This document shows positions 5,023-30,272 of a stretch of 64,000 nt of DNA, piece after piece. Below the pieces are notes generated by a model, which saw nothing but the letters and a program-made list of their open reading frames with translations, did not search any database and was not told the origin of the DNA. The translations under genes and the position numbers were made by a program. This DNA is from Multifurca ochricompacta (lineage: Eukaryota; Basidiomycota; Agaricomycetes; Russulales; Russulaceae): positions 1 through 64,000 of the forward strand of contig WTXG01000046.1 in NCBI GenBank assembly GCA_022496185.1. Reading direction: 5' to 3'. How positions within the stretch are numbered: the stretch's first letter is position 1; each line of letters starts with the position of its first letter.

Positions 5023-5036
5023 TTAAGTCAAGTCTC
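5023..5036 (+). other. Self-complementary primer binding site of gypsy A
   Basis: AAGTCAAGTCT at 5025-5035, two bases after the LTR end, is complementary to AGACTCGACTT at 4785-4795 except for one position that looks like a decayed CpG. It does not begin with the TGG expected for a tRNA 3'-end primer site. Tf1/sushi-type elements prime reverse transcription in this way from the 5' end of their own RNA. Confidence 0.65.
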
Positions 5037-5043
5037 CCCCACT

Positions 5044-6571
5044 GTGGCTTCATCCAGTCGAAGCCAGACCTTGCACAACGAAGAACTCATCGACTGTCAA
5101 GATGAGGATAATCTTTCACAACAAGTCCTTGGCTCTGCCATCTGGAAAGATTTTGAAACCGAGTTTGGATACTACATCTATCATGACAATCAGTACCAGC
5201 CAGTTGAATATGATGAACAGAAATGGGTTTGGTACTGTATCTGTTACTCTAGAAGCCACTGTTCCTGGGTTACCACAGGACCTGCCCCACCAGAGTACAG
5301 CTTAGGACCTTGGAGAGAAAATCCTCCAGCTATTGTCACAGATTCAGAGAACAAAGAATACATTGAAGAAAGCAGCAAAGATGCACAGGTCATAGCCATC
5401 AGTTTTACAGCTCCAACAGTTGCACCAGAGAGTACCATGTTCAGAACAACTGCTTTGGACTCTCCCCAGATTACACAGCAAACTTCTGACACTCCAACCC
5501 TCACCTACCCAATCATGTCCACCATTGCCACACAGTTACCCAACCCAGCTCCAGCTGTCCCTACACCAAACCTCCCTCCCCCATCAGGACACCTTACAGG
5601 AGTCCTGCCAACCACATTTACAGGTGATTGTTCTCAGAGCAAAAAGTTCATGCTCAAGTTCGAGACTTTCAAAAACTTCAATCACGATGTCCCACAAATA
5701 GTGAACCCCTTCCAGTGCATCAATCTCTTCCTCTTGCTCATCAGAGGGGACTCCATAGATGACTGGACAATGGAGCAAATAGAATGGCTGAATGACAGAG
5801 TTACAGCTGGAACTAGAACCACAGATGAGGATCTATGGGATATAGTGGCACAAAGATTCAAAGACGCCTTTACAGATGGGCAGGCCAAGCAGAAGGCTGC
5901 CAGAGAATTGAAATCCTTGAAGATGGAGAGAGGGGATTTGGACAGCTATGTGGCCAAATTCCACAACCTGGCCAAACGAGCAGGGTACAATGTAAATGAA
6001 GAGGCAATGCTTGACCTCTTCTCCCAGGGACTACCTAACCCCCTGGTGAAGAATATTATCTAATTTCATCACCCTGAATCATGGAGCCAGTGGACAAACA
6101 CTGCCAGGAGACAGCAACAAGATTATCTGGACTTCCAGACACGCTTCAGTGTAGACACAAAGAAGGGCAAAACCCATGACCAATGGAAGGCAGCATTTGG
6201 GGTGAAACCTACAACCTCACGAGACCCAAATGCCATGGATACATCAGCAGACCATACCAAAGCCTGCACAGTGCTCACCGACAATGAAAAGAAAAACCTC
6301 ATGAAAGAAGGGTGCTGCTTCCACTGCCGGGCCCAAGGACACATGTCACAATTTTGCCCCAAGAAAATGATCCATGCCACTGAAGCTACTGTGGCTACCA
6401 CTACCACAATGCCACCTGCACAAAATTTGCCCATGCCCATCAAAGAAAATCCAGTAACTGCCTCGAAGACAAAAGAACAAAAGGCAGAGGCCATATGGGA
6501 ACACATGATGAACAAAGACAGGCAGTTCGTGCCTTGTTGTTGATAAGGCCTTTGGCCACAAGGATTTTTGA
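5044..6571 (+). pseudogene. gag: gag of gypsy A (broken)
   Basis: Structural polyprotein of the element. It begins with GTG in the same place as in B and C; the frame is open to 6060, where a TAA replaces the glutamine codon seen in C. The rest continues to a CCHC zinc knuckle (CFHC-type: CCFHCRAQGHMSQFC near 6310-6355) that would bind RNA. A small frameshift near 6535-6545 separates the knuckle part from the last residues, which end at the TGA of 6569-6571 just after the frameshift heptamer. Low-complexity proline-rich sequence lies in the first third, as in C. Confidence 0.9.
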
Positions 6572-6600
6572 TTGGCTCACCCCATCGCCTGGGCAAGAGC
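6562..6600 (+). promoter_or_regulatory. Programmed -1 frameshift signal of gypsy A
   Basis: Heptamer GGATTTT (6562-6568) directly before the gag stop TGA, a 6-nt spacer, then a stem-loop (GCTC...GAGC with an inner CCC/GGG, 6575-6600). The loop is 2 nt shorter than in B and C but the stems are kept. Confidence 0.7.
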
Positions 6601-9600
6601 TTCATGTAACTTCTGTGTACACTAGTGTTTCAAGTCTCTAAAAATACCAGTACACTTTGAAACCAAACAGAAGATGGCCAACAATGGATATTGATGACTC
6701 TGGAGCAATGGACAATTTCATCAGTCAATACTCCAGAGGCACTAGGATTGGGGACACAATTACTTCCCCAGGAAAAAAATATTTGGAACATAGATGGGAT
6801 GGCTAACAAAGCTGGAAGATCACACATTGCTGTGACTTGGAAGTACAGGTTGGGAACAGACCAAACAGCTCTGTTCCTCATCACGATCTAGGAGACAAAG
6901 ATATGGTTTGGATACCCATGGCTGGCAGCATTTGAACCAAAATAATTGGGCAGAAGCAACCATGGACAAGAACTTTTACCCAGTCATATTACATCCTGGG
7001 ATACAATTATGCTGCACAACACCCTCTACCATGCCATGTTATGGGATAGCTGTCACCTGGAGTGATGTGGAACCTGTGGATCAGGTGTACTGTTCATCAC
7101 GAAAGCATCGAGCTGGCTCAGGCAGAGCGCAAAAGAATGGAAAAGATTTGAAGAAGTGTCCCCTGAATATCACCACATTGGAAGGTCTTTTCAGGAGGAA
7201 TCACAATGTTTCCCCCCTCTTGACCCTGGGATCATGCCATCAACTTTGTCCAGACACTCCTCAGTCGGTGATTGCAAGATCTATCCATTGTCCCACTGGA
7301 AAAGAAGTGCTCTCTACTTCCTGAGGAACATTAGCAAAAGGATACATACGACCTCTAACTTCCCTATGCCTCACCCTTCTTTTCATTAAAAGAAGGACAG
7401 AAAGCTGACGGTACAGGATATGACAGATTAATGAACTTACAGTGAAAAACAACTACCCGCTTCCTTGATCTCAGAAATCATCAATAAAATGATGAACAAG
7501 GCTCTATTTTCAAAATGATGTCCGTTGGGGTTACAACAATATTCATATCTGAGAAGGCACCAGCCCAAAGCCCCTTCAAGACCAATCAAGGACTCTTCGA
7601 ACCCAACTCATGTTCTTTGGCCTAACAACTGCCTGCAACCTTCAGTCAATGATGAATCATATTTTCCAAGACCTGATCCTACGGAAGAAGTGGTCATATA
7701 TATGGATGACATCCTAGTGGCTACCAGAATGACTTGATCATCATTGCACTCACATTCATGAGGTACTAGCCAAGCATGACCTCTACTTGAAACCAGCCAA
7801 GTGTTCTTTCGAACAAACCAGCATTGAATACCTTGGTGTCATTTTGGAAGGGGGTCAAGTATGCATGGACCCTGTAAAGGTACAAGGAATTTGGGAATGG
7901 TCTATACCCCAGTGTACCAAGGACATCAGATCATTCATTGGTTTCTGCAACTTCTATCAATGATTTGTCAAAGGGTTTTCAGCTATAGCCCAACCCCTAA
8001 ACGACTTATTAAAGAAGGACACACCCTGGCACTGGGATATGCCCCAACAAGAGGCTTTCGACCAGATAAAAACGATCATTAGTTTGGAACCTGTTCTCAT
8101 CCAACCCGATCTGGAAAAGCCATTCGAACTTGAAGTTGATGCCTCTATGTATGCCAATGGAGCCGTTCTCTCACAATGTGATGGTGCAGGGATTCTCCAC
8201 CCTGTCGCATTTTATTCAGAAACCTTTTCATCAGCAGAAAGAAACTATGACATTTGGGACAGAGAATTATTGGCTATCGTAAAAGCACTACAACACTGGT
8301 GACCATACTTGGCTGGATCTCTGCACAAAACCATCATCTATATGGACCACTCCAATCTCCTCTACTGGCAAGAACCTCATAAAATTAGTTGATGGGTAGC
8401 ACGTGAAGTTTGGGAGCTAGAAGAATACAACTTTACACTCAAACACCTCCCAGGAGCTTGTAATGCACACGCGGATGCCCTATCCAGACCAGCTGGTAGT
8501 AATGAAGGAGAAAATGATAACAACAACATTATAGTCTTACCAGAAGATGTCTTTACAAAGACAGCAGTTGTCAGCCTTCATGACATGGACTTGTGGGCCC
8601 AAGTGACACAAAACATGAACCAGGAATTGTGCAAATCCTGGGTAGAACCCACAATTTGAAGATGAAGAATGGGCTCTGGTGGAAAGACAATGATAGACTG
8701 GTTGTCACCAGTGGCAACAACATTAAGAGGGGGGTGATCCATTTTCACCATGACCTTCCCTCTGCAGGACATCCGGGCATCGCCAATACCTACACTCTGG
8801 CCAAACAAGACTACTGGTGGCTGAACATGAAGAAGGATGTAGAGGCATATGTCAAGGGATGTGCAGAATGCCAAGCAAATAAAGTAAACACACACCTGAG
8901 ACCACCAGCACTTTCACCCATCATGCTGATCGTGACAGCTCCTTTCCAAACTATTGCCATGGACTTTATCGTCAAACTACCACAGTCACAAGGGTATGAC
9001 TCAATACTCACTATCACAGACCACAATTGCTCAAAAGCCACCCTTTTTATCCCCTGTAATGAGACAATATTGGCAGAAGGAGTTGCCAAACTCTACCTAA
9101 ACCACATATACCGGCACTATGGACTCCCCCAGAAAATCATTTCTGACTGAGACCCACGATTTGCATCCATGTTTGCTCATGCCCTCTGCAAATGCCTTGA
9201 TATCCAGCAGAACATTTCTATAGCATATCACCCTCAAACAGATGGGCAATCAGAATGAACAAACCAATGGCTGGAACAGTATCTTCGATTCTGGTGCAAT
9301 GAGTGACAAGATGACTGGGCAGAATGGTTGGCGACAGCTGAGTTCGCACACAACAGCTGGCCAAATGGGACAACAAAGGTCTCCCCTTCTCCCTTATTAT
9401 GGGATGGAATCCCTGCACTACTTGGACAGATAAGCCCACAAATGTGCCATCTGTAACGCAGTGTATCGGCCAATGGGAAGAGATACGGGAATCAGCCAAT
9501 AGAAACCTTCAGAAGGCGCAAAAGACCCTGGCCAAGAAGCCCACAAGGTTTACACCCTACCAAGTTGGAGATCAAGTGTGACAGAATTCTCCCTGCGACA

Positions 9601-10539
9601 TTACTAATGACTTGACATCATGTTTCACTGGTGTTTGCTTACTGAGGGCCTAACCCCTCCTTATTCTCCATAGTTCTAGCTTGATCTACTATTAGACATT
9701 ATATCATAGTACTAGATGCTTCTACATAATATGACATAGCTAGCTCCACATGTATTTAAAGACCAACTAGAGTAGAGAGACAGACTAAGTCTGTTCTCTT
9801 GTGTTCAATCCAAGGTGCTTTTGACTTCATTGAACTCTCTCAGTAGAAACCCCACTTGAACTCTCCAAGATGTGACTTGGAGAGCCTTCGACCCCCTTGA
9901 ACTTGTTGCAGGACTGAGCGTCCCTGCTGTCGACTTCAACTCTCACGCACACCCTTTGACTTCGTTGAGGGCTTGAACTGAACTTGCTCTTGCTGTGACC
10001 TTGAATCTTGACTTGTCTTGCTCCCTCTTGTTCAACTTTGACACAGTTCCCGCACCTAACTGTGACATCAAGTCTGGCTGGAAGGACATAACATCCATAC
10101 CTCTCATCCAACGGCAAAACTTGCTCCCAGATGCCATGGTCTGTTCAAGATAGAACAGAAGCTGTCTGATGTTACATACAAACTAACATTACCACCCACA
10201 TGGAAGATCCATCCTGTCTTCCATGCCAACCTTCTAACACCATACAAAGAGACTTCTATTCATGGACAGAATTTCCCCAGACCTCCTCCTGAATTAGTTG
10301 ACAGAGAACTGGAGTGGGAGGTAGAGCATATCGCTGACACTAAATGGAAAGGCTGAGGGCACAATTGGAAGCTTCACTATCTGATCAAATGGAAGGGATT
10401 CCCTGATGCTGACAACTCATGGTAGTCTGCTGTGGATGTCTTTGTGCCCAAGCTTATTGAAGACTTCTATAGATGCCATCCCCAGGCAGATAAAGAGCAG
10501 GCTGCTATACATTCAACAAGACTGCCTTCTTCCCCATGA
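6568..10539 (+). pseudogene. pol: pol of gypsy A (broken; protease, RT, RNase H, integrase, chromodomain)
   Basis: Decayed polyprotein in the -1 frame relative to gag. Recognisable parts are the retropepsin region near 6690 (the DSGA motif reads DDSGAMDN), reverse transcriptase (YMDDILVAT at about 7700-7726), RNase H, integrase zinc-binding domain (HHDLPSAGHPG...CAECQANK, about 8745-8885), the integrase core (AMDFIVKLP near 8957) and a C-terminal chromodomain (WEVEHI...YLIKWKGFPDADNSW, about 10315-10425). Several stops are CGA/CGG to TGA changes (near 8301, 8391, 9148, 9256) and there are frameshifts in the RT. The solo LTR at 9577-10067 splits the integrase C-terminal region. Confidence 0.92.
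9577..10067 (+). repeat. Solo LTR E1 (TGTGAC...GTGACA family)
   Basis: A 491-bp LTR flanked by the exact duplication TCAAG (9572-9576 and 10068-10072). It is an inverted relative of 11260-11759. I take the plus strand as its sense strand because a TATA-like TATTTAAAG (near 9751) is followed about 25 nt later by a short dyad (ACAGACTAAGTCTGT), a plausible start of R. No internal region remains, so this is an LTR-LTR recombination product. Confidence 0.9.
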
Positions 10540-10557
10540 CTGCCCAGAACAACATCC

Positions 10558-12253
10558 ATGTCTCCATCTAGTGTCCACACCTCTGCTGCCATTGATGTGT
10601 TTCCCTTACTTTCTCCTTTGCATCCTCCTTCTCGCCCATTATCTCCTATTGACTATGATGTGGCTGCCAAAGTGGCTGAAGGGATCAGAACCACTGATGT
10701 CAACGAAGATTTTGATTTGCCCAAACACCCTCATCCCAACAACTTGATTGATGTCGACTTTGGTGATGAGGCCCCAGAGTTCCTGTTCTTCCTGAACAAC
10801 CCTGACTCACAGTTTTACTTTCCACTTATGATCCCAACATCTAGGAATGATGGCACCACTGAAGTGGCCAAATACATTTATTACACCAACAAAGGTATGG
10901 ATGTAGCTGGGTGTTTGGAAAAAGGAGGGCCAGTCTACAGGGCCCCAGTGTATCTGGAGGAAAAGAAAGTCAACCGGCTTCACTATGTCTTGGGGCCAGA
11001 ACATCTACAGCATCTTTTGACCCATGACCCTCGTGCCTTCGCCATCAATGAGGTGCTCCGGGACTTACGCATGCCACAACTAACTGCTGAAGTTGCATGG
11101 TTGCACAAATTCCAGGTGCTCAGGGACAACCTAGAAATGCAGCACCACAACTATGAGCGACAAATGGTGAAAATCAACCAAGGGGTTTTTGACATAGAGC
11201 ACCACCTGGTGAACATCAGGACAAGACTGGAGTTAGGGGAGGCATACCAGATCATATCCTGTCACAGTTAGGTGCGGAACTGTGTCGAAGTCAAACAAGA
11301 GTGGGCCTTTCAAGTCAAGACTCAAGGTCACAGCAAGGTCAAGTTCAGTTCAAGCCCACAATGAAGTCAAAGGACACGCACACAAGAATCAAAGTTGATG
11401 GCAGAGACACTCAGTCCTGCAACAAGTTCAAGATGATGAAGGCTCTCCAAGTCGCATCTTGGAGAGTTCAAGTGGGGCTCTAACTGAGAGGATTCAAGGA
11501 TTCCAAAGCACCTTGGATTGAACACAAGAGAACAGACTTAGGTCTGTCTCTCTACTTTACTGTACTTTAAATACAAGTAGTTCTAGCTATGTCATAGTAA
11601 ATAGAAGGTTCTAGGACTATGACATAGTATCTAAATGGTTGTGCAGTAGAACTAGCTAGAACTAAGGAGAATTAGGAGGGGTTAGGCCCTCAGTAAGCAA
11701 AACACCGGTGAAACACAATATCAAGTCATTAGTAACATCGCAGGGAGAATTCTGTCACATATCCGAATGGTATGCCAATATCTTTGCTCAGCCCCTCCCC
11801 CGCTGCTGCCTTGACCTTGCACCCTGACTCAACCCCCACTGCTTCAAAATGCCATGCCTCCATGAAAATCCAGATGGTAAGCTTTGCTGGCACTGTAGCA
11901 GCAAGTACCATCTCAGCTGGTGCTGCCCCACAGCCAAGAAACGATGTCAGCATTGCCAGAGCACCTCGCACTGGAGCTGCCAATGCCTGTTTCAACAGCT
12001 CACACAGGCCCCCACCATCCAGAATCCATTGGGATGGTGTGGCAAATGTCTTTCCCACAACACCAGCCACCAAGAGATCGACTGTCATGTTTACAATGGC
12101 TGCTTTTGCTGTGGGAGATGGGGGCCCTATGGTTTTCTATGAACACACATTTGCCCCACGAATGAAGAAAAGGAGAACTATGATGCTGATCACTATGCCG
12201 TAGCTGACAATTACCTCTCCTTGGTCCATGATGATGATGGTATGCCACTCTAG
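10558..12253 (+). pseudogene. Third ORF of gypsy A (multi-zinc-knuckle protein), interrupted
   Basis: An accessory ORF starting 19 nt after the pol stop, with ATG at 10558. The first part is open for 237 codons and contains the block (Y)TNKGMDVAGC and GPVYRAPVYLEE shared with B and C, then a Leu/Glu/Gln-rich, probably coiled-coil stretch. The solo LTR E2 splits it at 11260. The second part (about 11765-12253) has two C-x2-C-x4-H-x4-C knuckles and two further Cys/His clusters ending in GRWGPYGFL; the latter reaches a TGA where B and C read arginine. The function is unknown. Its conservation with B and C at strong DNA divergence suggests it was once selected. Confidence 0.8.
11260..11759 (-). 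repeat. Solo LTR E2 (TGTGAC...GTGACA family)
   Basis: A 500-bp LTR flanked by the exact duplication TATCC (11255-11259 and 11760-11764), inverted with respect to E1. The minus strand is assigned as sense from the TATA-like box and dyad shared with E1. It splits the third ORF of element A. Confidence 0.9.
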
Positions 12254-12284
12254 CTGGCTCTGCTAGGACTTAGAGAGGGGGTAA

Positions 12285-12878
12285 TGTTACAAACCCTGCT
12301 GTGTCATCTTGTTTCTTTTCATTTCATGTGACATGCTGTTTGGCCTCATTTGCCCTTTGTTGATCATGTTTATGACTTTCTTTGTACCTATTTGTCCCTT
12401 ATCTCTGGACTGGGCTGTGCTTATCTCTGACTCATACCTTACACAAGAACTCTTACATATTTTCCCACCAGAATCGTGACTATACTGGATCCATCTATGT
12501 ATATTCTCATCTGGCCCACCCTGACTCTGTTCCCTATTTGGTTAGATTATGACTTTGTTGATACATTGAGTATGTTACTCCAATTTAGACTCCGACCTCT
12601 ATTACATATATAAGGCCTGTCTAGATAGCCTGTATGCCTTAGACTCGACTTCTTAATCAACTTGGTGCATTGCCTTCTGGGTGATCTCTAAGACCTGACT
12701 CCTGAATCGTCTCAGTGCTTCTGGCACTCTTCTGCTCACTGATACTAAGGGATTAGCTCCTTGGTATTGACTTCTCAACCTGACCTCCATGTACTTGAAA
12801 GACAGTACACACTTGACTTTGTAGTTTTGCTATGCAACTTATCACATGTCGTGCTGAATGCCCACACCAGGTGTTACA
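12285..12878 (+). repeat. 3' LTR of gypsy A, with polypurine tract before it
   Basis: 594 bp, TGTTACAAAC to AGGTGTTACA. The purine-rich tract at about 12270-12284 (cttagagagggggtaa) is the plus-strand primer; the equivalent in B and C is agaagaggggGtga-like. It carries the uninterrupted target (single TTTCT) of the copia LTR inserted in the 5' LTR, so the two LTRs recorded different histories after insertion. Confidence 0.94.
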
Positions 12879-15159: not shown

Positions 15160-15744
15160 TGTTACATCCGGTGCGGGACGTTCCACACGACTTGTGTGAC
15201 AGCGCGATTCGTAGGTTCAGGTAAGAAACCAATAAGGCCTCTTGGAGATGAAGTGGAATGAGTCAAAGTCAAAGGGGCGCTCCCTAAGACGATGTTGAAT
15301 GGAAAAGTACCAGAAGTACTTGAGACAAATGAGTCAGAGATCAAGGGGATGTCCAGAAGACAGGCACCGATGTATTCAATAAGTCAAGTCTGAGGTCTAC
15401 AGTGTAACTACAGCAGACTTATATATGTAACTCAATGGGCGCCTACAAGATAAGGGTACAGAGTCAGGTGGGCCCAAATATACAGAAGCGGACGGCGTAG
15501 AGTCAAGCTTCTGATAGGGTATTAAGTAAGTGTCTGGTCGTAAAGATAAGGCGATAACGAGATAACAAGTCAAACATAAGCAAACGTCGTGTCAACAAGT
15601 ACAAAGTGGGTCACGGGGATGGAAGTAAGGCATGTGATGGATCCCACGATGGAGACGTGATTGAGAAGTGCAAAGTGGGTGGCAGCGAGGGGTCGTCGTT
15701 GGGGAGTAGAAAGAAAACGGGGGCAGACAGTAGAGGTTGTAACA
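15160..15744 (-). repeat. 3' LTR of gypsy B
   Basis: 585 bp. By my alignment it differs from the 5' LTR at 30287-30871 at 14 positions, all transitions, all at positions where one or both copies imply an ancestral CpG. The polypurine tract (read on the minus strand, agaagagggggtga) lies just before it at about 15745-15760. Confidence 0.93.
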
Positions 15745-15775
15745 TCACCCCCTCTTCTGGTTCTAGCAGACCCGG

Positions 15776-17014
15776 CTAGAAACGACTCGTACCGTCATCA
15801 TCCTGTACCAACTCCAAGTAGTCGTCAGCTACATTACGATCATCCATGGTATAGTTCTCCTTGTCCTCATCCTGGGGGCATTGGTGGGTGCGGAGGAATC
15901 CGTAGGGGCCACGTCGACCACATAAGCGGCACTGGTCGTGGACAGGGCAGTCCAACTCGTGGTGTCCTGCATTGTGACGCAAGCACTTGCCACACCATGC
16001 GGATGGGTTGTTGATTGTCAGAGTGACTCCTATGCGGCGGAAGATACAGAACCTGCTCCAGTGCAGGTTGCTACGACAGTGCTGACACCACTTGCGATTG
16101 AGGGGACAGTTCCAGCTGATGTGATACTTACTATCACAGCGCCAGCATGTCTCTCCACAGGGGTTCTCATGCATACGTGGCATCTCGAACCGGTTGGGCA
16201 ACAGCACAGGAGCAGCCCCCAATGATTGTGGGGGCAAGGGTCGGGCATACGTGTCGGCGTACCTTTCGGCAATTGTTTGGTAGGCATCCCCTTTCTCCAA
16301 CCTCTTTCGAATCTCCACCAACTCCTGCTCAATCTGGAACATCCCGTTGGTCAGCCGGGCCATCATCTTCGCGTGTTCTTTGTACTGCTTGTTGAGTGTA
16401 TTGCGTAAGGTTAGATTCTTCCGCAGTCTCATTACCTCAGCTTTGAGATGCGGAAGTCACATGTCAGTCAGTACTTCATCGATGGCAAAGGCTTGCAAAT
16501 CTTCGGCAGCCAGGTGCCCCAGTTGTTCGTCGGTCATGGTGTGGTGCAAGCGGCCGGTGTACCTTTCCTCCAGATATACTGGAGCTCCATAAACGGGACC
16601 GTCCTTCTTCATGCATCCAGCCACGTCCATCCCTCCATTAGTGTAAAAGATATACTTGGCGATTGCGACTGTCCCATCACCCGAGGTGATCTCCAACAGG
16701 TAGTACGTGGAGGAGTTTGGGTTATTAACGAAAAAGGGGAATTCGGGAACTTCATCATCTGACTCCATACCTATCAGGTCATTCGGATGTGGTTCTTCGC
16801 AGTGGTCGAAGTCGTCGTTGGGGTTGGGGGACTGGTTCTTGACTCGGGCTTCGGCAGCCTCGTAATCAATGGGTGAGGAGGGATGTGTAGAAGGGTGAGC
16901 AGAGGGGAAGTTCTCGACAACCACGGTAGTGGCGGTGAAGGCGTCGATGGCAGCGTTGGCAGCGATGAAAGACATAATGGATTCTGTGGTTGTAGGACGT
17001 TGCTGTGGGAGCAT
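15776..17014 (-). pseudogene. Third ORF of gypsy B (four zinc-binding motifs), one stop
   Basis: The best-preserved copy of the accessory ORF. It opens at 17014 (or at the second ATG, 16977) and would encode about 410 residues. One TGA at about 16454-16456 stands where C has CGC. The order is: Ala/Pro/Ser-rich N-terminus; acidic segment; conserved block with AKYIFYTNGGMDVAGCMKK and GPVYGAPVYLEERYTG; heptad-like charged stretch (coiled coil likely); then CWRCDSKYHISWNC and CQHCRSNLHWSRFC, both C-x2-C-x4-H-x4-C zinc knuckles; then CGKCLRHNAGHHELDC and CRLCGRRGPYGFLRTHQC. It follows the pol stop by about 38 nt. There is no signal peptide or membrane segment, so it is not envelope-like. I do not recognise the family; a nucleic-acid-binding accessory protein is an inference. 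Confidence 0.8.
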
Positions 17015-17051
17015 GTACTGGGGAGTTTACTTGGGATCTGGGGCTGTTCTT

Positions 17052-17292
17052 TTAACTATTCTTGGGCGCCTCTGGATGTCGGTCATGGAACTCCGAGATA
17101 AGGGCCGGGGCAAAGATATTCCCAGCGGGCTCCCACGAGTTGTCAGAGTCTGGGAATCCTTTCCACTTGACTAGGTAATGCAGCTTGCGCCCTCGGCCTT
17201 TACGTGAGGAATCTAGAATTCGCTCCACTTCCCACTCCGCTTCTCCATCGATTAATTCAGGGGGGGGTCTCGGGAAGTTTTCCCCATGCAGG
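17052..17292 (-). pseudogene. pol: 3' end of pol of gypsy B (chromodomain)
   Basis: Read on the minus strand this holds the C-terminal chromodomain of the integrase (EWEVERI, YLVKWKGFPDSDNSWEP). It is separated from the rest of pol (25521-28765) by element C. Chromodomains at this position direct integration to heterochromatin in chromoviruses. The stop is at 17052-17054. Confidence 0.88.
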
Positions 17293-17886
17293 TGTTACGA
17301 CCAGGGCCTAGCACCCCACTTTTCTTCACTCTCCCTAATGAGGACCCTTCCCTTCCGCCCACCCTCCACTTCTTGATCACATCCCGGTCCTGGGATCCCT
17401 CACGTGCTTTACTTCCATCCCCGTGACCGTTGATTGTCTATGTTGACCTGTTGCTTACCTCTGTTATGGATTCCCTTATCACTTATCTCCTTATCTCTAA
17501 GACCGGACACTTACTTAATACCCTATCAGAAGCCAGGCTTTACGCCATCCGCTTTCGTATATTTGGGCCCACATGACTCCTTGATATCTTATCTTTAGAC
17601 GCTCATTCGATTACGTATATAAGTCCGCTGTAACTACATTGTAGACTTTAGACTTGACTTATTGAATACATCAGTGCTTGTCTTCTGGACTTCCCCTTGA
17701 ACGCCTTGAACTCGATCGTCTCACAAGGTACTTCTGGTACTCCCCGCTTAACATCGTCTCAGAGTGCAGCCTCTTTGACTTTGACTCCTCCCGTATAAAC
17801 TCCAAGAAGCCTTATTGGTTTCTTATCTGACAACGAACGAACGCTGTCACACAAGTCGTGTGGAACGTCCCGCACCGGACGTAACA
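17293..17886 (+). repeat. 5' LTR of gypsy C
   Basis: 594 bp, TGTTACGACC to CCGGACGTAACA. TATA box TATATAAG at 17616-17623; presumed R start AGACTTGACTT at 17650-17660, again 34 nt from the first base of the TATA box. There is no ATG between the presumed RNA start and the end of the LTR. Confidence 0.95.
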
Positions 17887-17900
17887 TCAAGTCGAGTCTC
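17887..17900 (+). other. Self-complementary primer binding site of gypsy C
   Basis: AAGTCGAGTCT at 17889-17899, two bases after the LTR, pairs with AGACTTGACTT at 17650-17660 over 11 nt with one G-U pair. The non-tRNA start (TCAAG) supports Tf1/sushi-type self-priming. Confidence 0.7.
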
Positions 17901-17908
17901 TACCCAGC

Positions 17909-19426
17909 GTGGCTTCGTCCAGCCGAAGCCAGACCCTGTTCAGAGAAGAACTCATCAAATGCAGAGACGAGAATAATCTTTCACAACAGACACTTGGCTC
18001 TGCCGTCTGGAAAGACTTTGAAACCGAGTTTGGATACTACGTCTATCACGACGGAAGATACCAACCGGTAGAGTACGACGAAGAAAGGAGAGTTTGGTAT
18101 CGTATCCAATACTCGGATAGCAGACACTCGTGGGTTACTACCGCTCCCGCTCCACCAGAATTCGGTCTCGGACCGTGGAGAGAGAACCCGCCTGCGATCA
18201 TCACCGACTCAGAACCAGAAGAATACGTCGAAGAAAATAGTGAAGACGCACCAGTATTAGCATTGCCTACACCCCTGGTTGCACTGGCAGTTGTCACGAC
18301 CAGAGCACCTGCTTTGACAACTCCTCAGATCTCGATACAATCCTCCGACACCATCATCCCATTCCGACAAAACATGTCAACCATCGCTGCCCAGCTCCCT
18401 GACCCCGCTCCTCCTCCCCCTCCTCCACCTCCTGTTGTCCCAAACATCCCTCCACCATCAGGACGTCTCTCGGGAATCCTACCCCAGACCTTCATGGGAG
18501 ATCGTTCCCAAAGTAAAAAGTTTATGCTGGAGTTCACCACGTTCAAGAACTTCAACCACAATGTCGCCCAAATCGTCAACCCTTTTCAGCGCGCCAACCT
18601 CTTCCTCTCGCTCATCAGAGGTGACACAGTTGACGACTGGACGATGGAGCAGCTCGAATGGTTAAACGAGCAGGTAGAAAGTGGACGCCGTACTACCAGT
18701 GAAGGCCTCTGGGAGACCATAGCCCAGAGATTCAAAGATGCCTTCACTGATGGACAGGCGAAGCAGAAAGCAGCCAGGGAATTGAAAGCCCTGTGGATGG
18801 AAAAGGGAGAGCTTGATGCCTATGTAGCAAAGTTCCAGAGCCTGGCAAACCGAGCGGGTTATGATACAGATGAAGAGGCAACCTTGGACCTCTTTTCCCA
18901 AGGGCTGCCAAACCCACTTGTCAAAAACATTATTCAGTTCCATCACCCTCATGATTGGGACGAATGGGTTGATGCTGCTCGACGACAGCAGCAGGACTAC
19001 CTCGACTTCCAAACGCGGTTTGGAGTCAACACCAAAAAGGGAAAGACCAGAGAACAGTGGAAAGCAGCGTTTGGGGTCAAACCAGCGCATGCCACGCAGA
19101 GGGATCCTAATGCAATGGATACCTCGGCAGATAGAGCCAGGGCAAGAGCAATGCTCACAGAAGACAAACGGCAGACGCTGATGAAAGAAGGACGGTGTTT
19201 CCGCTGCAAAGGACAGGGGCATATGTCCCAGGACTGTCCGAAGAAGGGGGTACGAGTCACAGCGGCAAATACTACACCCACCACCCCCGTCAACAACAAC
19301 CCACCAGCCATAGACAAACAAACCAAAGAAGAAAAAGCCCAGGACATATGGGCAAACATGATGAAGGAGAGTGAGGAAGTGCGAGCCATTCTTGTTGAGA
19401 AGGCATTTGCAAAGAAGGATTTTTGA
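17909..19426 (+). CDS. gag: Gag polyprotein of gypsy C (intact frame)
   Basis: A 505-codon open frame beginning at GTG (context AGC-GTG-G, purine at -3 and G at +4) and ending at TGA 19424-19426. In B and C the frame upstream of this GTG reaches the TAA of the LTR end without any ATG, so either GTG or a near-cognate codon is used, or a spliced leader supplies the AUG; the first in-frame ATG is only at 18373. The protein has a charged N-terminal part, a proline-rich linker (PAPPPPPPPPVVPNIPPPSG, about residues 165-185), a retrotransposon-gag capsid-like region (QSKKFMLEF to LVKNIIQFHHP) and one CCHC knuckle (CFRCKGQGHMSQDC). It would assemble the particle and package RNA. Confidence 0.92.
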   Translation: MASSSRSQTLFREELIKCRDENNLSQQTLGSAVWKDFETEFGYYVYHDGRYQPVEYDEERRVWYRIQYSDSRHSWVTTAPAPPEFGLGPWRENPPAIITDSEPEEYVEENSEDAPVLALPTPLVALAVVTTRAPALTTPQISIQSSDTIIPFRQNMSTIAAQLPDPAPPPPPPPPVVPNIPPPSGRLSGILPQTFMGDRSQSKKFMLEFTTFKNFNHNVAQIVNPFQRANLFLSLIRGDTVDDWTMEQLEWLNEQVESGRRTTSEGLWETIAQRFKDAFTDGQAKQKAARELKALWMEKGELDAYVAKFQSLANRAGYDTDEEATLDLFSQGLPNPLVKNIIQFHHPHDWDEWVDAARRQQQDYLDFQTRFGVNTKKGKTREQWKAAFGVKPAHATQRDPNAMDTSADRARARAMLTEDKRQTLMKEGRCFRCKGQGHMSQDCPKKGVRVTAANTTPTTPVNNNPPAIDKQTKEEKAQDIWANMMKESEEVRAILVEKAFAKKDF

Positions 19427-19457
19427 TAGGCTCTACCCCGTCGGCCTGGGCAAGAGC
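19417..19457 (+). promoter_or_regulatory. Programmed -1 frameshift signal of gypsy C
   Basis: The gag frame ends G-GAT-TTT-TGA. The heptamer GGATTTT (19417-19423) fits X-XXY-YYZ-like slipping and equals the heptamer I know from red clover necrotic mosaic virus. A one-base backward slip continues as TTG-ATA-GGC, which is the pol frame. After a 6-nt spacer a stem-loop follows (19430-19457): GCTCT pairs with AGAGC, with an inner CCC/GGG pair. Confidence 0.78.
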
Positions 19458-22400
19458 ACTCCATGTTACCTCTGTGTATACTAGTCGCTTCAAATCGTTG
19501 AAAATACCAGTTCATTTCGAGACTACACAGAGAACGGCCGACCGAGACATCTTAGTGGACTCTGGAGCCACAGATAACTTTATCAGTCCAAGAATGATCA
19601 AAGTCTTGGGACTGGGGATGCAGGCTCTTCCCCAAGAGAAAAATATCTGGAATATTGATGGGACTGCCAATCGTGTTGGAAAGATCACACATTATACTGA
19701 CCTAAACGTCCAAGTCGGAGAAACAACAAAAGTCATCCGCTTCCTAGTCACCAACTTAGGGGATGAAGATCTTATTCTGGGATATCCATGGCTTGCTGCA
19801 TTCGAACCCAGAATCAATTGGGCCAATGCGACGATGGACAAAGACTCCTACCCCACCATCATCACATCGATCGGCTATGATTATGCGATCAGACACCAGA
19901 TGGTTGTAGACACAAATGAGGAAGACCCAGGTCGCTGTTACACCACCAAGGCTTCAGAATTGGCCCAGAAGGCGACGCAAGGGCAGAAAGAAAAAACTTA
20001 TAGCGATGTAGTACCGCGAGTCTATCACCGACACTGGAGGGTATTCTCGGAAGAAGAGTCACAGCGATTTCCACCTTCCCGACCCTGGGATCACGCCATA
20101 GACCTACTCCCTAACGCGCCGGCAGCAATCGACTGTAAAATCTATCCATTGTCCCAGTCTGAACAGGTGGCGTTGACAGAGTTCCTTGAAGAACATTTGG
20201 CCAAAGGGTACATCCGCCCGTCTAAGTCACAGTACGCGTCACCCTTCTTCTTTATCAAAAAGAAGGATGGGAAGCTGTGACCGGTCCAGGATTATCGACG
20301 GATTAACGCTTATACCATGAAAAATGCCTACCCCCTGCCACTCATCTCCGAACTCATAGACACTATGAGGGATAAGTCCCTCTTCTCGAAAATGGACGTG
20401 CGATGGGGGTATAACAACGTCAGGATCAAGGAAGGTGACCAGTGTAAAGCGGCATTTAAAACAAATCAGGGATTATTCGAACCAAATGTCATGTTCTTTG
20501 GCCTCATGAACTCACTGGCAACATTTCAAGCCATGATGAACCACATCTTCCAGGATCTCATCCTCACTGGAGAAGTAGTGGTTTACATGGACGATATCTT
20601 GGTGGCCACCCCAGACAATCTAGATCACCACCGAGATCGCGTACATCAGGTACTCGACATACTCCAGGAACACAATTTGTACCTCAAGCCCGCCAAGTGC
20701 TCCTTTGAGCAGCAAAGTGTTGAGTACCTGGGGGTCATCTTAGAAGGAGGACAAGTGTGCATGGATCCCATTAAAGTACAGGGAATTCGGGAATGGCCAG
20801 TTCCGACCTGTGTCAAGGATGTCCGGTCGTTCATTGGATTCTGTAACTTCTACCGACGCTTTGTCAAAGGATTCTCAGGCATCGCACGACCGTTAAACGA
20901 TCTATTGAAAAAGGACGTGCCATGGCATTGGGACGTAACACAACAACAAGCGTTTGAACGGATCAGGGATTTAGTCAGCTCAGAACCGGTACTCATTCAA
21001 CCAGATCTAAGTCGCCCCTTCGAATTGGAAGTGGACGCCTCTCACTTTGCAAATGGAGCTGTGTTATATCAGAGAGATGCCACAATGATACTCCACCCAG
21101 TGGCATACTACTCCGAGACCTTCTCCCCAGCCGAACGAAATTATGACATCTGGGATAGGGAACTCTTAGCCATAGTCAAGGCATTACGGCATTGGCGACC
21201 TTACCTGGCCGGGACTCCACATCAGACCATTATCCACACCAACCATTCCAACCTGTTGTATTGGAAAGAGCCCCATAAAATCAGTCGGCGTGTCACAGCC
21301 AGGTCTCTGCTGTGTCTAGGATCGTTCAAGTCAAGCCCCTTCAAGATATGGAGTGCCTGCAAGGTCAAGACTGTCAAGGACAAGTTGGTTCAAGGGGTCA
21401 GGGTGAACCACAAGAGCCAGGATCAAGGATCAAGGTCAAGGCTATCAAGAGCAAGTCAATTCAAGGTGTCAAAGCGAACCACAGAGGGCCGCGGTTAGGA
21501 TTCAAGGCCCACACAAGATAAGAAGGGCACGCGTGCAAGAAGCGAGTCGAAGCAGTGGCAATAGGCCCTGCTGGAGGTTCTGGGGTGAAGGCTTCCTAAG
21601 TTGCAGCTTAGGAAGTTCAAGGGGATTCTGGTGAAGAACAGTAGACCTGTATTAGATACAAGAGAACAGACTTAAGGTCTGTCTCTCCAATATGTCCTGC
21701 TTAAATACATGTACTCTAGTGTCTTGTAAGTAAAGTAGAAGATTCAATATAGTAGTAAATGTCCATGTGAATCTCCAGTGGAGATTGAGACAGGAAATAT
21801 AAGTGGTGTTGCACCCACTCCAGAAGCGAATGAGTGTCAATCCCAATCAGTCTAAGAAGTCCGAAAATCAGATAAAGCAAGATCATCAGCTCCAGTCACA
21901 TGACTCGGAGCGAGAAGTCGAAACGTTGAAACAAAAGTCGAACGCGCGCGGCTCGAAAAACCGTCACAAAACGTCACACGCGCGTCGCAGGTTGTCACAT
22001 CGACAATAAGCGTCACACGGCGTGTTGCACAGGAGGTCCTGGAGCTAGAGGAATACAACTTCACCTTGAAACACATCGCTGGCAGCCAAAATGCCAGAGC
22101 CAATGCGCTGTCGCGCAGACCAGATATGCATACAGGCGAGGACGACAACAACGACATCACTGTCCTTCCTGAGGAGGTGTTTGCAAAGACCACTGTCGTT
22201 AGTCTCCATGATATGGACCTGTGGGCCCAAGTCTCACAGAATATGAACCCCTCACTCTGCCGCTCATGGGCTGATGCACACAACTTGAAAGAAGTCAACG
22301 GTTTGTGGTGGAAAGACGGAGATCGACTCGTTGTCACCGGTGGCGACAACATTAAGAGGGGGTGATCCATTTTCACCACGACCTTCCCTCTGCCGGCCAC

Positions 22401-23630
22401 CCTGGCATCGCAAACACTTATGCTCTTGCCAAACGTGACTACTGGTGGCCCAACATGAAAAAGGACGTCGAGAGTTATGTGCAGGGGTGCGCAGCGTGTC
22501 AAGCAAACAAGGTGAACACCCACCCGAAAACCCCACCAATACACCCCATCGTGCCCATTGCATCGACTCCCTTCCAGACCATTGCAATGGACTTTATTGT
22601 CAAACTACCCAAATCACAAGGCTTCGACACCATCCTTACGATCACTGACCACGACTGCTCCAAGGCGGCCTTGTTTATCCCTTGCAACGAAACCATCATG
22701 GCTGAAGGGGTGGCGAGACTATATCTGAACCATGTATACTGTCACTATGGACTCCCCAGAAAGATCATATCCGACCGAGACACCAGATTCACATCAGCAT
22801 TCGCCAAAGCCCTGTGTAAGACATTAGACATAACACAGAACATCTCGACGGCTTACCACCCCCAAACGGACAGGCAATCCAAACAAACAAACCAATGGTT
22901 AGAACAGTATCTGCGGTTCTGGTGCAACAGCAGACAGGACGACTGGACAGAATGGCTCTCAACCACGGAATTTGCTCACAATTCGTGGCCCAACGGAACT
23001 ACGAAAGCCACCCCTTTCTCCCTTATCATGGGCTGGACCCCGCGCACCACATGGACAGATAAGCCCACTAATGTCCCCTCCGTAACCCGACGGATAAGCC
23101 AATGGGAAGAGTTGCGACAATCCGCCAATGAGAACCTGACGAAGGCGCAACAGCTCCTGGCAGCACAGCCAAGCACATTCACACCTTATCAAACCAATGA
23201 CTGGGTCTGGCTTGAAGGAAGGAACATCCACATGTCACATCCCTCGGCCAAGTTAGCGCCCCGACATCACGGACCCTTCCAGATCACCAGGAAGCTGTCG
23301 GACGTATCATATGAACTGCAGTTACCCCCGAAATGGAAGATCCACCCCGTCTTCCACACCAAACTTCTGACTCCATATAAGGAAACCACCATTCACGGGG
23401 AAAACTTCCCAAGGCCTCCACCTGACCTTATCAATGGAGAAGAAGAGTGGGAGGTGGAACGCATTCTCAATTCAAAGCGACAAGGTCAAGGGCGCAAGCT
23501 GTATTACCTTGTCAAGTGGAAGGGATTCCCAGACTCTGACAACTCGTGGGAGCCAGCCGGAGAAATCTTCGCCCCTGCCCTTATCTCGGAGTTTCACATC
23601 CGACACCCAGAAGCGCCCAAGAACGCTTAA
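19423..23630 (+). pseudogene. pol: pol of gypsy C (protease, RT, RNase H, integrase, chromodomain)
   Basis: Polyprotein made by -1 frameshifting from gag. Domains in order: retropepsin (DILVDSGATDNFIS, about 19549-19590); reverse transcriptase with YMDDILVAT (20584-20610); RNase H (ELEVDASHFANGAV, NYDIWDRELLAIVKALRHW); integrase zinc-binding HHCC domain (HFHHDLPSAGHPG...CAACQANK, 22370-22515); integrase core with Asp in AMDFIVKLP and ISDRD; chromodomain (EWEVERI...YLVKWKGFPDSDNSWEP, 23445-23565). Breaks: TGA for CGA at 20278-20280, the solo LTR at 21291-22017 inside RNase H, and a lost G near 22357. The core Glu region reads QTDRQSKQTNQW where B has QTDGQSERTNQW; all three changes are G-to-A at CpG sites and remove conserved residues. 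Confidence 0.93.
21291..22017 (-). repeat. Solo LTR D (TGTGAC family) in the RNase H region of C
   Basis: 727 bp, flanked by the exact duplication CGGCG (21286-21290 and 22018-22022). It shares the dyad ACAGACTTAAGGTCTGT and flanking bases with D'. One end (about 21900-22015) is rich in repeated TGTGAC/GTCACA words. It is the youngest insertion of this nest. Confidence 0.92.
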
Positions 23631-23708
23631 AAGGGGAGCAACCCAGAACCCTGTCGAATTCCCCAGTACCTGCTCCCCCAGCAACGTCCTACCACCATTC
23701 ACTCTATC

Positions 23709-24895
23709 ATGTCTTTCATCACTGCCAACGCTGCCATTGACGCTTTCACCGCCACCAATGTAACCGTCGAAAACTTTCCCTCTGCTCACCCTTCTTCACG
23801 CCCCTCTTTGCCCATCAACTATGAGGCCGCGGCAGCTCGAGTAAAGAATCAATCCCCAACCCGAACGACGACTTTGAACACAGTGAGGAGCCACACCCAA
23901 ACGACCTGTTGGGCATGGAACTAGATGACGAAGTACCCGAGTTTCCATTCATTGCTAACAACCCCAACTCGTCCATGTACTTCCCCCTCAAGATCACCAT
24001 GGCTGATGGGATGACCGCCATCGCCAAGTACATATTCTATACCAATGGAGGGATGGACGTCGCGGGCTGTATGAAGAAGGATGGCCCTGTTTACGGGGCC
24101 CCGGTCTATTTAGAGGAAAGGTATACAGGATGTCTGCACCATACGTTGACCGACGAACAGCTTGGACACCTGGCCGCCGAGGACTCCCGCGCCTTTGCAA
24201 TTGACGAAGTGATGGGTGACATGCGCCTTCCGCATCTCAGAGCCGAAGTCATGAGACTGCGGAAGAATTTAACACTGCGCACGACGCTCAACAAACAGTA
24301 CAAGGAGCACGCGAAGATGATGACCCGACTTACTAACGGGATGTTCCAAGTCGAACAGGAGCTGGTAGAGATTCGGAAGAGATTGGAGATTGGGGATGCG
24401 TACCAGACCATTGCTGAAAGGTATGCTGACACATACGCACGACCGCTCCCCCCACGATCATTGGGGGCTGCCCCCTGACTACTGCCGAATCGGTTTGAGA
24501 TGCCGCGGATGCACGAGAACCCCCGGGGTGAGACATGCTGGCGATGTGATAGCAAGTATCACATTAGCTGGAACTGCCCACTCAACCGCAAATGGTGCCG
24601 TCACTGCCGGAGTACTCTGCACTGGAGCCGCTTCTGCATTTTCCGTCATGTGGGCGTCGCCCCGACGATCGTTAACCCCTCGGGGTGGTGCGGCAAATGT
24701 CTGCGTCACAACGCAGGACATCGCGAACTCGATTGCCCAGTCCACAACTTATGCCGACAATGTGGACGACGCGGCCCGTATGGTTTCTTGCGCACACATC
24801 AATGCGCGGCTGACGACACTTACACCATCGACGATTGAAACCTGGCAGATGATTATGTAGACTTGGTGCAGGACGATGACGGTGCGCATTTCTAG
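23709..24895 (+). pseudogene. Third ORF of gypsy C (four zinc-binding motifs), broken
   Basis: Starts with ATG at 23709, 78 nt after the pol stop and in another frame. Compared with B it has a one-base loss near 23860, a TGA near 24476, and CGA to TGA at about 24836-24838. The conserved block (AKYIFYTNGGMDVAGCMKK; GPVYGAPVYLEERYTG), the charged helical stretch and all four Cys/His motifs (about 24536-24810) are present. It ends with TAG at 24893-24895, 31 nt before the 3' LTR. Function is unknown; the zinc knuckles imply nucleic-acid binding. Confidence 0.8.
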
Positions 24896-24926
24896 CTGGG
24901 TCAGCTTGAACCAGAAGGGAGGGTGA

Positions 24927-25520
24927 TGTTACGACCAGGGCCTAGCACCCCACTTTTCTTCACTCTCCCTAACGAGGACCCTTCCCTTCCGCCTACCCTC
25001 CACTTCTTGATCATGTCCCGGTCCTGGGATCCCTCACATGCTTTACTTCCATCCCCGTGACCGTTGATTGTCTATGTTGACCTGTTGCTTACCTCTGTTA
25101 TGGATTCCCTTATCACTTATCTCCTTATCTCTAAGACCGGACACTTACTTAATACCCTATCAGAAGCCAGGCTTTATGCCATCTGCTTTCGTATATTCGG
25201 GCCCACATGACTCCTTGATATCTTATCTTTAGACGCTCATTCAATTACGTATATAAGTCTGCTGTAACTACATTGTAGACTTTAGACTTGACTTATTGAA
25301 TACATCGGTGCTTGTCTTCTGGACTTCCCCTTGAACGCCTTGAACTCGATCGTCTCACAAAGTACTTCCAGTACTCCCCGCTTAACATCGTCTCAGAGTG
25401 CAGCCTCTTTGACTTTGACTCCTCCCGTATAAACTCCAAGAAGCCTTATTGGTTTCTTATCTGACAACAAACGAACGCTGTCACACAAGTCATGTGGAAC
25501 GTCCCGCACCGGATGTAACA
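24927..25520 (+). repeat. 3' LTR of gypsy C
   Basis: 594 bp. By my alignment it differs from the 5' LTR at 17 positions, all transitions, 15 of them at present or inferred ancestral CpG. A polypurine tract (agaagggagggtga) precedes it at about 24913-24926. Confidence 0.95.
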
Positions 25521-28500
25521 GCAGGGCTGTCTCTCTGTAAGGTGTCAGAAGTCGGGCATGGAAGACTGGGTGAATTCTCCATGTGGATGGAAGTCCGAGT
25601 TCATATGACACATCTGACAGCTTCCTCGTTATCATGAAGGGTCTGTGGCGTCGGGGAGCTAATTTGGCAGTGGGGTGTGACGTGTGAATGTTCTTTCCCT
25701 CCAGCCAGACGAGGTCATTGGTCTGATAAGGCGTGAACTTTGACGGCCTTTTGGATAGGGTTCTTTGCGCCTTGAGCAGGTTTTCATTGGCCGATTTCCT
25801 GATCTCCTCCCATTGGCTGATACGCTGCGCAGCCGACGGGACGTTTGTGGGTTTCTTGGTCCAGTTGGTCCGTGGTGTCCAACCCATGATAAGTGAGAAT
25901 GGAGGGGTCTTGGCAGTCCCGTTGGGCCATGAGTTGTGTGCAAACTCTGCCATTGCTAGCCAGTCAGCCCAGTCGTCCTGTCGCCTGTTGCACCAGAACC
26001 GAAGATACTGTTCTAGCCATTGGTTCGTTCTTTCTGACTGCCCATCAGTCTGTGGATGATAGGCAGTCGAAATATTCTGGGTAATGTCCAAGGTCTTACA
26101 GAGCGCCCTGGCAAAGGTGGAGGTAAAGCGTGGGTCGCGGTCAGAGGTGATCTTTTCGGGGAGGCCATAGTGTCTGTAGACGTGATCCAGGTAAAGTTTG
26201 GCTACGCCTTCCGCTGTGACGGACTCATTACAGGGTATGAACAATGCCGCTTTAGAGCAATCGTGGTCGGTGATGGTCAAGATCGAGTCGAATCCTCTGG
26301 AGATGGGGAGTTTGACTATGAAGTCCATCGCAATGGTCTGGAATGGTAATGAGGCCGTAGGTGTGATCGGGAATGGTGCTGGTGGGTGCGGGTGTGTGTT
26401 TACTTTGTTGGCTTGGCAGTCCGCACATCCCTTCACATAGTTTTCCACATCCTTCTTCATGTCTGGCCACCAGTAATCTCGTTTGGCCAAGGCGTATGTG
26501 TTCGTAATGCCGGGGTGGCCCGCCGAGGGAAGGTCATGGTGGAAATGGATCACCCCCCTCTTAATGTTGTTGCCACCAGTGACAACGAGACGATCCCCGT
26601 CCTTCCACCAAAGGCCATCGATTTTCTTCAGATTATGTGCGTCTGCCCATGACTCACATAATTGTTGGTTCATGTTTTGTGACACTTGAGCCCATAGGTC
26701 CATGTCATGGAGGCTCACGATGGCGGTTTTTGCAAAAACCTCTTCAGGCAGGACCATGACATCATTATTGTCCTCTTCTCCATTGTTCCAATCCGGCCGT
26801 CGTGACAAGGCATCTGCGCGTGCATTGCGGCTTCCTGCGATATGTTTCAACGCGAAGTTATATTCCTCCAGTTCTAGGACTTCGCAGGCAACCCGCCGAC
26901 TAATCTTGTGGGGTTCCTTCCAATATAATAGGTTGGAGTGATCGGTGTGAATAATGGTTTTATGGGGAGTTCCTGCCAGGTACGGTCGCCAATGTCGTAG
27001 TGCTTTTACAATGGCGAGCAGTTCTCTGTCCCAAATATCGTAATTCCGTTCTGCCGGCGAGAATGTTTCTGAGTAAAAGGCAACTGGGTGAAGTAATCCT
27101 GCCACATCCTGTTGGTTTAGTATGGCTCCATTTGCAAAGCGCGATGCATCTACTTCAAGTTCAAAGGGCTTTTCCAGATCTGGCTGCAGAAGAACTGGTT
27201 CTGAGCCTACAATGTCTCGGATCTGTTCGAAGGCTTGTTGTTGTTCGTTTCCCCAGTGCCAAGGTGTATCCTTTTTTAACAGCCCGTTCAATGGTTGGGC
27301 CATACCTGAGAATCCTCGTACAAATCGTCGGTAGAAGTTGCAGAACCCGATGAAGGATTGCACATCCTTGATACATGTGGGTATGGGCCATTCCCGAATC
27401 CCTTGCACCTTTACTGGATCCATCCGAACCCGTCCTCCTTCCAGGATAACCCCCAAGTATTCTATGCTCCGTTGTTCAAATGAGCATTTTGCCGGTTTGA
27501 GGTATAGATCGTGCTCATGCAAAATGTCCAACACTTGATGAACACGCTGTCAGTGATGGGCCAAATCGTCTGTTGTAGCCACGAGGATATCATCCATGTA
27601 CACCACTACTTCGCCTGTGAGGATAAGGTCACGGAAAATATGGTTCATCATAGATTGGAAGGTGGCAGGCGAGTTGGTAAGACCGAAGAACATGACGTTT
27701 GGCTCGAAGAGTCCCTGGTTGGTTTTGAACGCCGCTTTGCACTGATCTCCTTCTTTAATCCTGATGTTATTGTACCCCCACCAGACATCCATTTTGGAGA
27801 ATAGGGACTTGTCCCTCATGGTATCAATGAGTTCGGAGATGAGGGGAAGAGGATAAGCGTTCTTTATGGTATGGGCATTTATCCGTCGGTAGTCTTGGAC
27901 GGGTCGAAGTTTCCCATCTTTCTTTTTGATGAAGAAGAAAGGTGATGCGTATGGTGACTTTGACGGGCGAATATATCCTTTCGCAAGGTGTTCTTCAAGA
28001 AACGCTGTGAGTGCCTCCTGCTCTTTCTGGGACAATGGATGGATTTTGCAGTCGATGGCAGACGGGGTGTCAGGTGTGAATTCAATGGCGTGATCCCAAG
28101 GTCGCGTTGGCGGGAAACATTGTGATTCCTCTTCTGAGAACACTTTCCAATGTCGGTGATAAACCTCCGGCACTACTTCCTCGAAGTTTTTCTCTGTATG
28201 CCCTTCTGCTGCCTTTTGGGCCAGTTCTGATGCTTTCGTAACATAGCAGCGTCCCACATCCTCCCCTCTGTCTCCGGTACCTTTGTGTGTCGGATAGCAT
28301 AGTCGTACCCTAATGATGTGATGAGAACTGGGTAGTAGTCCTTGTCCATGGTTGCGTCGCTCCAATTGATTTTTGGCTCGAATGCAGCCAACCATGGGTA
28401 TCCTAGGATTAGATCTTCGCTTCCCAAATTGGTGACAAGGAAGCGAATTGCCTTTGTCCTTTCCCCCACTTGGACATTAAGGTCGGTGTAGTGGGTAATC

Positions 28501-28765
28501 CTTCCGGCTTTATTGGCCATTCCATCTATATTCCAGATGTTCTTTTCCTGGGGGAGTTCCAGCATCCCCAAGCCCATGGTCCTCGCCATTCGTGGGCTGA
28601 TAAAGTTATCAGTGGCTCCTGAGTCAATCAGGATGTCACGGTCAGCCATCCTCTGTGTAGTCTCGAAATGTACTGGTATTTTAATGACTTGAAGCAACTA
28701 GTATACACAGAGGTTACATGTAATGCTCATGCCCAGGCCGACGGGGTAGAGCCAATCAAAAATCC
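25521..28765 (-). pseudogene. pol: 5' and central pol of gypsy B
   Basis: Read on the minus strand from the frameshift heptamer at 28765. It holds retropepsin (DILIDSGATDNFIS), RT (YMDDILVAT near 27600), RNase H (ELEVDASRFANGAI), the integrase zinc-binding domain and the integrase core with intact AMDFIVKLP, TSDRD and HPQTDGQSERTNQW. The long part 27534-25521 is a continuous frame of about 670 codons. A frameshift lies near 28260-28280 and a CGA to TGA stop at about 27548. The frame is cut at 25521 by element C and resumes at 17292. Confidence 0.93.
28725..28765 (-). promoter_or_regulatory. Programmed -1 frameshift signal of gypsy B
   Basis: On the minus strand: GGATTTT (28765-28759), gag stop TGA, spacer TGATTG, stem-loop 28752-28725 with GCTC...GAGC and inner CCC/GGG. 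Same geometry as in A and C. Confidence 0.75.
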
Positions 28766-30267: not shown

Positions 30268-30272
30268 GATGA

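Follow-up and report, generated by a model that had tools for sequence, protein, structure and literature searches.

Plant LTR retrotransposons can carry additional ORFs in sense orientation between pol and the 3′ LTR, which PMC7264820 describes as env-like, some with transmembrane domains. Retand elements have TRP28 ORFs at the same place, encoding an extra predicted nucleic-acid-binding protein (PMC11963269), and bdelloid rotifer LTR retrotransposons carry family-specific ORF3s downstream of pol that are typically expressed from spliced messages (PMC5408684). For fungi, the legend of Fig. 3 in PMC2864245 mentions gypsy elements with an additional ORF of unknown function. Here, we describe ORF3, which is a true third gene in an abundant family of Ty3/gypsy chromoviruses in the genome of Multifurca ochricompacta. 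ORF3 shares with the plant sense ORFs of PMC7264820 its position, orientation, presence in most copies and possible spliced expression, and differs from their env-like character by its zinc motifs and by having no membrane segment that we could see. As a third ORF after pol, it matches the bdelloid ORF3s, although these are GDSL esterases, DEDDy exonucleases, env-like, coiled-coil or membrane proteins (PMC5408684). The Retand TRP28 ORFs agree with it in location and predicted nucleic-acid binding, but are antisense, found in plants and built on a different domain (PMC11963269), whereas ORF3 is sense. With the ORF of PMC2864245 it has in common that both are extra ORFs of fungal gypsy elements, a likeness drawn from the wording of the legend.

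The window, the whole stretch of 64,000 nucleotides that was analysed, contains three overlapping chromodomain Ty3/gypsy elements (A, B and C) within its first 31 kb (Table 1). Element A is older and itself interrupted, and at 17288–25525 the complete element C, flanked by a 5-bp target duplication (GCAGG), lies cleanly nested in pol of its opposite-strand relative, element B. Related coding sequence (ORF3) lies between pol and the 3′ LTR in each of the three elements, as a reading made beforehand from the letters alone (the sequence-only reading) had proposed for all three gypsy copies. The intervals it gave do contain ORF3 in every case, with the amendment that the copy of element B is on the minus strand, in an element split by element C. 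All three window copies are broken; open copies are found elsewhere in the genome.

Table 1 Elements, coding regions and junction features in the window
Feature	Positions	Strand	Description
Element A	3922..12878	+	5′ LTR in pieces 3922–4019 and 4521–5022; 3′ LTR 12285–12878; 91–94% identical
Element A ORF3	10558..12253	+	Second subfamily, ~50% aa identity to B; ~500 bp interruption around 11260–11760, plus stops
Element B, split by element C	15160..30873	-	3′ LTR 15160–15746, 5′ LTR 30287–30873, 97.6% identical
Element B ORF3	15776..17014	-	Open pieces 17014–16457 and 16432–15776, single in-frame TGA between; conserved block, long helix, four Cys/His motifs
Element B pol-ORF3 spacer	17015..17054	-	pol TAA, variable spacer, pyrimidine-rich ..CCCCAGTAC block, then ORF3 start
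Element B pol end (chromodomain)	17055..17291	-	Upstream of element B ORF3
Element C	17293..25520	+	LTRs 17293–17886 and 24927–25520, 97.0% identical
Element C gag	17909..19426	+	Retrotrans_gag and one CCHC knuckle, 20.0 vs Pfam cut-off 20.8 bits
Element C pol, integrase and chromodomain part	22362..23630	+	Immediately 5′ of ORF3
Element C ORF3	23709..24895	+	Broken: frameshift near 23850 and two in-frame stops

The carrier is a Ty3/gypsy chromovirus, with protease, reverse transcriptase, RNase H, integrase and a C-terminal chromodomain in order. Specifically, the Pol of element C exposes protease, RVT_1, RT_RNaseH, Integrase_H2C2, SH3_Tf2-1 and Chromo over cut-off, with the integrase core (rve) scoring below its own; the CCHC knuckle of gag (E 0.00069) is itself slightly below the Pfam cut-off. 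The leaders of these elements have two further features. The beginning of R is complementary to the segment directly 3′ of the 5′ LTR (17650–17660 and 17889–17899 in element C). All 11 positions form Watson-Crick pairs in element B; element C and L099, a locus elsewhere in the genome, have 10 such pairs and one G-U, and element A has 10 and one mismatch. This pairing looks like self-priming in place of a tRNA primer, for which self-priming of the Tf1/sushi kind is the comparison. In element C, the reading frame of gag is open from the end of the LTR (17887–18350), and its conserved first ~150 codons contain no ATG, as in L099 and elements A and B; a GTG occupies an identical gag position in 4/4 leaders, so gag may initiate at a non-AUG codon. 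Elsewhere in the window, the ORF translation of 1853–2506 resembles, by eye, a Ty1/copia RNase H end, and an Rfam tRNA match of 46.9 bits falls at 56600–56700, with no ARAGORN call under bacterial settings.

The ORF3 protein consists of ~410 residues, with a pI of about 6 overall and about 9 in the zinc region (two open copies). A conserved block (GMDVAGC / GPVYGAPVYLEE) is located in the N-terminal part, and the C-terminal part is a basic array of four Cys/His motifs, two C-x2-C-x4-H-x4-C followed by C-x2-C-x6-H-x4-C and C-x2-C-x11-H-x-C. The sequence-only reading had singled out four such motifs, two of the first type, and had held that diverged copies keep them; both points are borne out, as all 16 ligands are retained in 30/30 B-like copies and in 18/21 copies of the A-like subfamily, whose protein is about 43–56% identical to the B-like one. 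Motifs 1 and 2 have the C-x2-C-x4-H-x4-C spacing in 30/30 B-like copies, which is the exact spacing of retroviral nucleocapsid (NC), and mean identity is 98.6% at the 16 ligands vs 76.8% at other positions. Motifs 3 and 4 depart from the canonical knuckle and could be protein-binding modules instead. AlphaFold, run on the window pieces with three-row alignments, predicted a helix 69 residues long, with a block mean pLDDT of up to 90, that likely forms a coiled coil, and gave no reliable fold for the N-terminal block (pLDDT about 31–46) or the zinc array (<50). ORF3 occupies the usual place of env, behind pol and ahead of the 3′ LTR, which would suit an envelope-like or movement gene, and so would the possible 3′ splice site upstream described below, as for env. 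Kyte-Doolittle hydropathy in two open copies, in a simple 19-residue scan, peaks at 1.5 and reveals no membrane segment, in agreement with the sequence-only reading, and the protein has a zinc array instead; the sequence largely refutes an envelope-like gene, which we consider highly improbable.

We searched the genome (53.8 Mb in 605 contigs) for further copies. With the C-terminal half of element B ORF3 as query, at least 150 places reached ≥86% identity (the 150 best among 1719 candidates), and the N-terminal half of element A ORF3 found at least 150 places of the second subfamily (best 150 of 1619 candidates); because the best 150 of about 1600–1800 candidates were scored in the whole-genome searches, copy numbers are lower bounds. 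A selection free of ORF3 used the last 80 pol residues as query, and among the best 30 of the 150 listed loci, ORF3 is immediately downstream of the chromodomain in 30/30. Among PF00385 hits, ORF3 was present in 10 of the 12 fetched (of 150 listed), the other two being a host CHD-type helicase recognised by eye (L091) and L099. In the latter, the chromodomain is joined at a short distance to the LTR and gag of another element, as in a nested or recombinant copy. ORF3 qualifies as an additional ORF (aORF) of LTR retrotransposons, a term for extra conserved reading frames that accompany gag and pol in most or all copies. The B-like copies are many old lineages maintained in parallel. In-frame stops of the listed ORF3 copies are nearly all TGA, with TAG or TAA in 4/150 rows of the A query and 0/150 of the B query, an excess expected from C-to-T decay at CGA codons that would be methylation- or RIP-like.

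Selection on ORF3 was measured as dN/dS by Nei-Gojobori counts, requiring a single alignment of >340 residues, which kept 30 B-like rows (29 places, since the window copy of B and L001 are one place) and 21 of 30 A-like copies. The B-like set gives pS 0.576, pN 0.040 and a median dN/dS of 0.034 (421/435 pairs finite), and the A-like set pS 0.586, pN 0.092 and dN/dS 0.077, values in which dN is lowered by the choice of copies for ORF3 similarity; between the subfamilies, pS is 0.836 and saturated. In copies selected by chromodomain (29 of the best 30 of 150 loci, the degenerate L074 being left out), dN/dS is 0.046 for ORF3 (389/406 pairs with dS >0.05) vs 0.079 for the pol end. At matched loci, pol C terminus and ORF3 score 0.078 vs 0.029 in 8 B-like copies and 0.074 vs 0.081 in 20 A-like copies, where ORF3 is overall no tighter than pol. 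ORF3 is thus under purifying selection of a strength similar to that on the pol end. Constraint along the gene is uneven: the first 80 residues have dN/dS 0.054 in B-like and 0.365 in A-like copies, and the conserved block and zinc part 0.034–0.058. Within this one genome, B-like copies differ at more than half of synonymous sites and keep ~90% of residues.

That all three window copies are broken might suggest a chance open frame or passenger DNA rather than a gene. The medians of 0.03–0.08, where the sequence-only reading had named a dN/dS near 1 as the outcome that would count against it, and the invariance of the 16 ligands in all 30 B-like copies contradict this. In 27 of the 30 B-like rows, the other two frames give 2.2 and 2.9, and pairwise differences at codon positions 1, 2 and 3 are 7.0, 3.3 and 35.7%. 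This codon analysis refutes the absence of a gene, to which we assign a negligible probability. Third-position distances of ORF3 and pol are correlated (r 0.58, 0/2000 permutations, 25 loci), which indicates that ORF3 has travelled with its element.

The connection between pol and ORF3 follows two architectures. In the B-like architecture, ORF3 is in a separate frame, and all three phases relative to pol occur (phases 0, 1 and 2 in 21, 25 and 14 of 60 junctions, or 17, 22 and 11 of the 50 distinct ones, some loci having been fetched twice). Pol ends with TAA in 57/60, and about 75 nt (67–85) separate this stop from the MSF start of ORF3. The spacer is variable except for a pyrimidine-rich block ending in YAG(TAC/AAC/TAT) ahead of the start at 50/50 distinct junctions; the YAG is kept even where TAG replaces CAG or no ATG is adjacent. 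Between −49 and −27, the mean majority frequency is 0.934 vs 0.713 at ORF3 third positions, counted in the 54 rows (44 distinct) that have ATG at the MSF start, over a stretch that may in part be coding. A YAG preserved after a run of pyrimidines resembles a splice acceptor, by analogy with retroviral env; a matching 5′ splice donor, judged by eye, was not conserved among four leaders.

In the A-like architecture, the pol frame runs on into ORF3, a feature absent from the sequence-only reading: the linker is in phase in 26/28 junctions and stop-free in 22/28 (L015 and L028 were left out, as the chromodomain was not found there). In 23 linkers of modal length, the three codon positions differ about equally (31, 33 and 38%), which suggests that linker residues matter little. 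The ATG of ORF3 itself is present in 28/28 A-like junctions, an invariance shared with 11/63 other linker sites in the 23 modal-length copies, and an AG is missing from some A-like junctions. Taken together, the YAG and phases of the B-like junctions and the ATG of the A-like ones imply that ORF3 probably starts independently in both subfamilies; the continuing A-like pol frame additionally allows it to be translated within Pol. The proposal of a separate ORF of ~400 codons therefore holds for the B-like subfamily and not for the A-like one, and none of the window copies is continuous.

An HMM search against Pfam, which the sequence-only reading had recommended, and against NCBIfam returned no family over cut-off for ORF3, and PHROGs gave nothing convincing; with no convincing match in these three collections, identity with a known domain was rejected. 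Pfam zf-CCHC stayed below cut-off, with a best E of 0.095 in 1/10 members, and a search of viral contigs found nothing. In the PDB, motifs 1–2 aligned with Lin28 and retroviral nucleocapsid proteins at E-values no better than 0.08, and the helix with the coiled coils of keratin and GCN4 at no better than 0.3, all insignificant. In 5.8 billion proteins, a single-sequence ORF3 search recovered 0 relatives among 2568 candidates, and a control pol query 6803 among 7970. A profile of ten ORF3 sequences recovered two among 5640 candidates, both hypothetical proteins of Multifurca ochricompacta (Russulaceae). The 209-residue protein is 66% identical over 41% of the query and the 155-residue one 69% over 38%; both lack the zinc part. 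Among the open-licence PubMed Central passages and listings covered, none reports a fungal element with a sense ORF of zinc-knuckle type downstream of pol. The ORF3 protein family appears new; the sequence-only reading was right to call a nucleic-acid-binding protein after pol unusual in that respect, and extra ORFs at this place are of a known kind.

These searches also bear on the origin of ORF3. It could be a duplicated NC region of gag, since one of its knuckles is similar to that of gag (BLASTP E 0.067; 23 columns in hhalign), or a captured host gene, since the two Multifurca relatives are known here as protein entries alone, which leaves room for a host source. Against gag, the hhalign probability is 6.7, and outside that one knuckle similarity is limited to short, insignificant stretches; we therefore rejected gag duplication, and the duplicated gag knuckle region that the sequence-only reading had named as a counter-finding was not seen. 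Neither origin is favored by the lack of a Pfam family and by only two relatives among 5.8 billion proteins, and we regard both as improbable.

We propose that ORF3 is an accessory, oligomerising, nucleocapsid-like nucleic-acid-binding protein, made from its own start in the B-like subfamily and also carried by Pol in the A-like one, a reading to which we give a probability of about 0.6. Nucleic-acid binding is likely from the primary structure, as the tandem knuckles bear a weak resemblance to those of Lin28 and retroviral NC. ORF3 has in common with these proteins and Gag nucleocapsid two adjacent C-x2-C-x4-H-x4-C motifs and a basic region. It differs from Gag nucleocapsid in being placed after pol and the chromodomain rather than at the C terminus of Gag, with gag having a single knuckle of its own, and from both nucleocapsid and Lin28 in having four motifs, two with other spacing, plus an extra block and a long helix. 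The protein would oligomerise through this helix, and its knuckles would bind the RNA or cDNA of the element, providing an extra nucleocapsid-like chaperone beside a gag with one knuckle that may act in packaging, reverse transcription or the integration complex. B-like ORF3 would be translated from its own start, plausibly off a spliced subgenomic RNA, given the pyrimidine-rich YAG invariant just upstream; A-like ORF3 may also be delivered as the C-terminal part of Pol.

The main rival to a nucleocapsid-like role is a regulatory or anti-silencing factor acting outside the particle, whose targets would be silencing by the host, export of RNA or element transcription. Its models are Rev/Tat-like factors and the anti-silencing proteins of other transposons. 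Separate B-like expression, the zinc motifs, the coiled coil and strong conservation would all fit such a factor, and in PMC7264820 and PMC11963269 a regulatory function is suspected for additional ORFs of plants. The A-like pol frame entering ORF3, stop-free in most junctions, favors delivery with Pol instead, and two motifs have exactly the retroviral NC spacing, so that we judge a regulatory factor unlikely, though the most serious competitor.

A broader claim, which we put forward tentatively and at slightly less than even odds, is that ORF3 represents a new retrotransposon-encoded nucleic-acid-binding family, a second nucleocapsid-like factor after the chromodomain, so far seen in a mushroom lineage only, and encoded either in its own, possibly spliced, cistron or as a run-on of Pol, with the start codon kept in both. 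What is new here is an apparently undescribed protein family and the comparison of two architectures, additional ORFs of LTR retrotransposons being already known. The function of an extra ORF becomes testable on a single protein with a clear zinc signature, and the separate and pol-fused subfamilies constitute a natural experiment on gene gain, split or fusion in retroelements. Gag and Pol are usually held to be sufficient for LTR-retrotransposition. A third protein in an abundant family, under constraint comparable to that on the end of pol, implies that something besides Gag and Pol is needed in this host.
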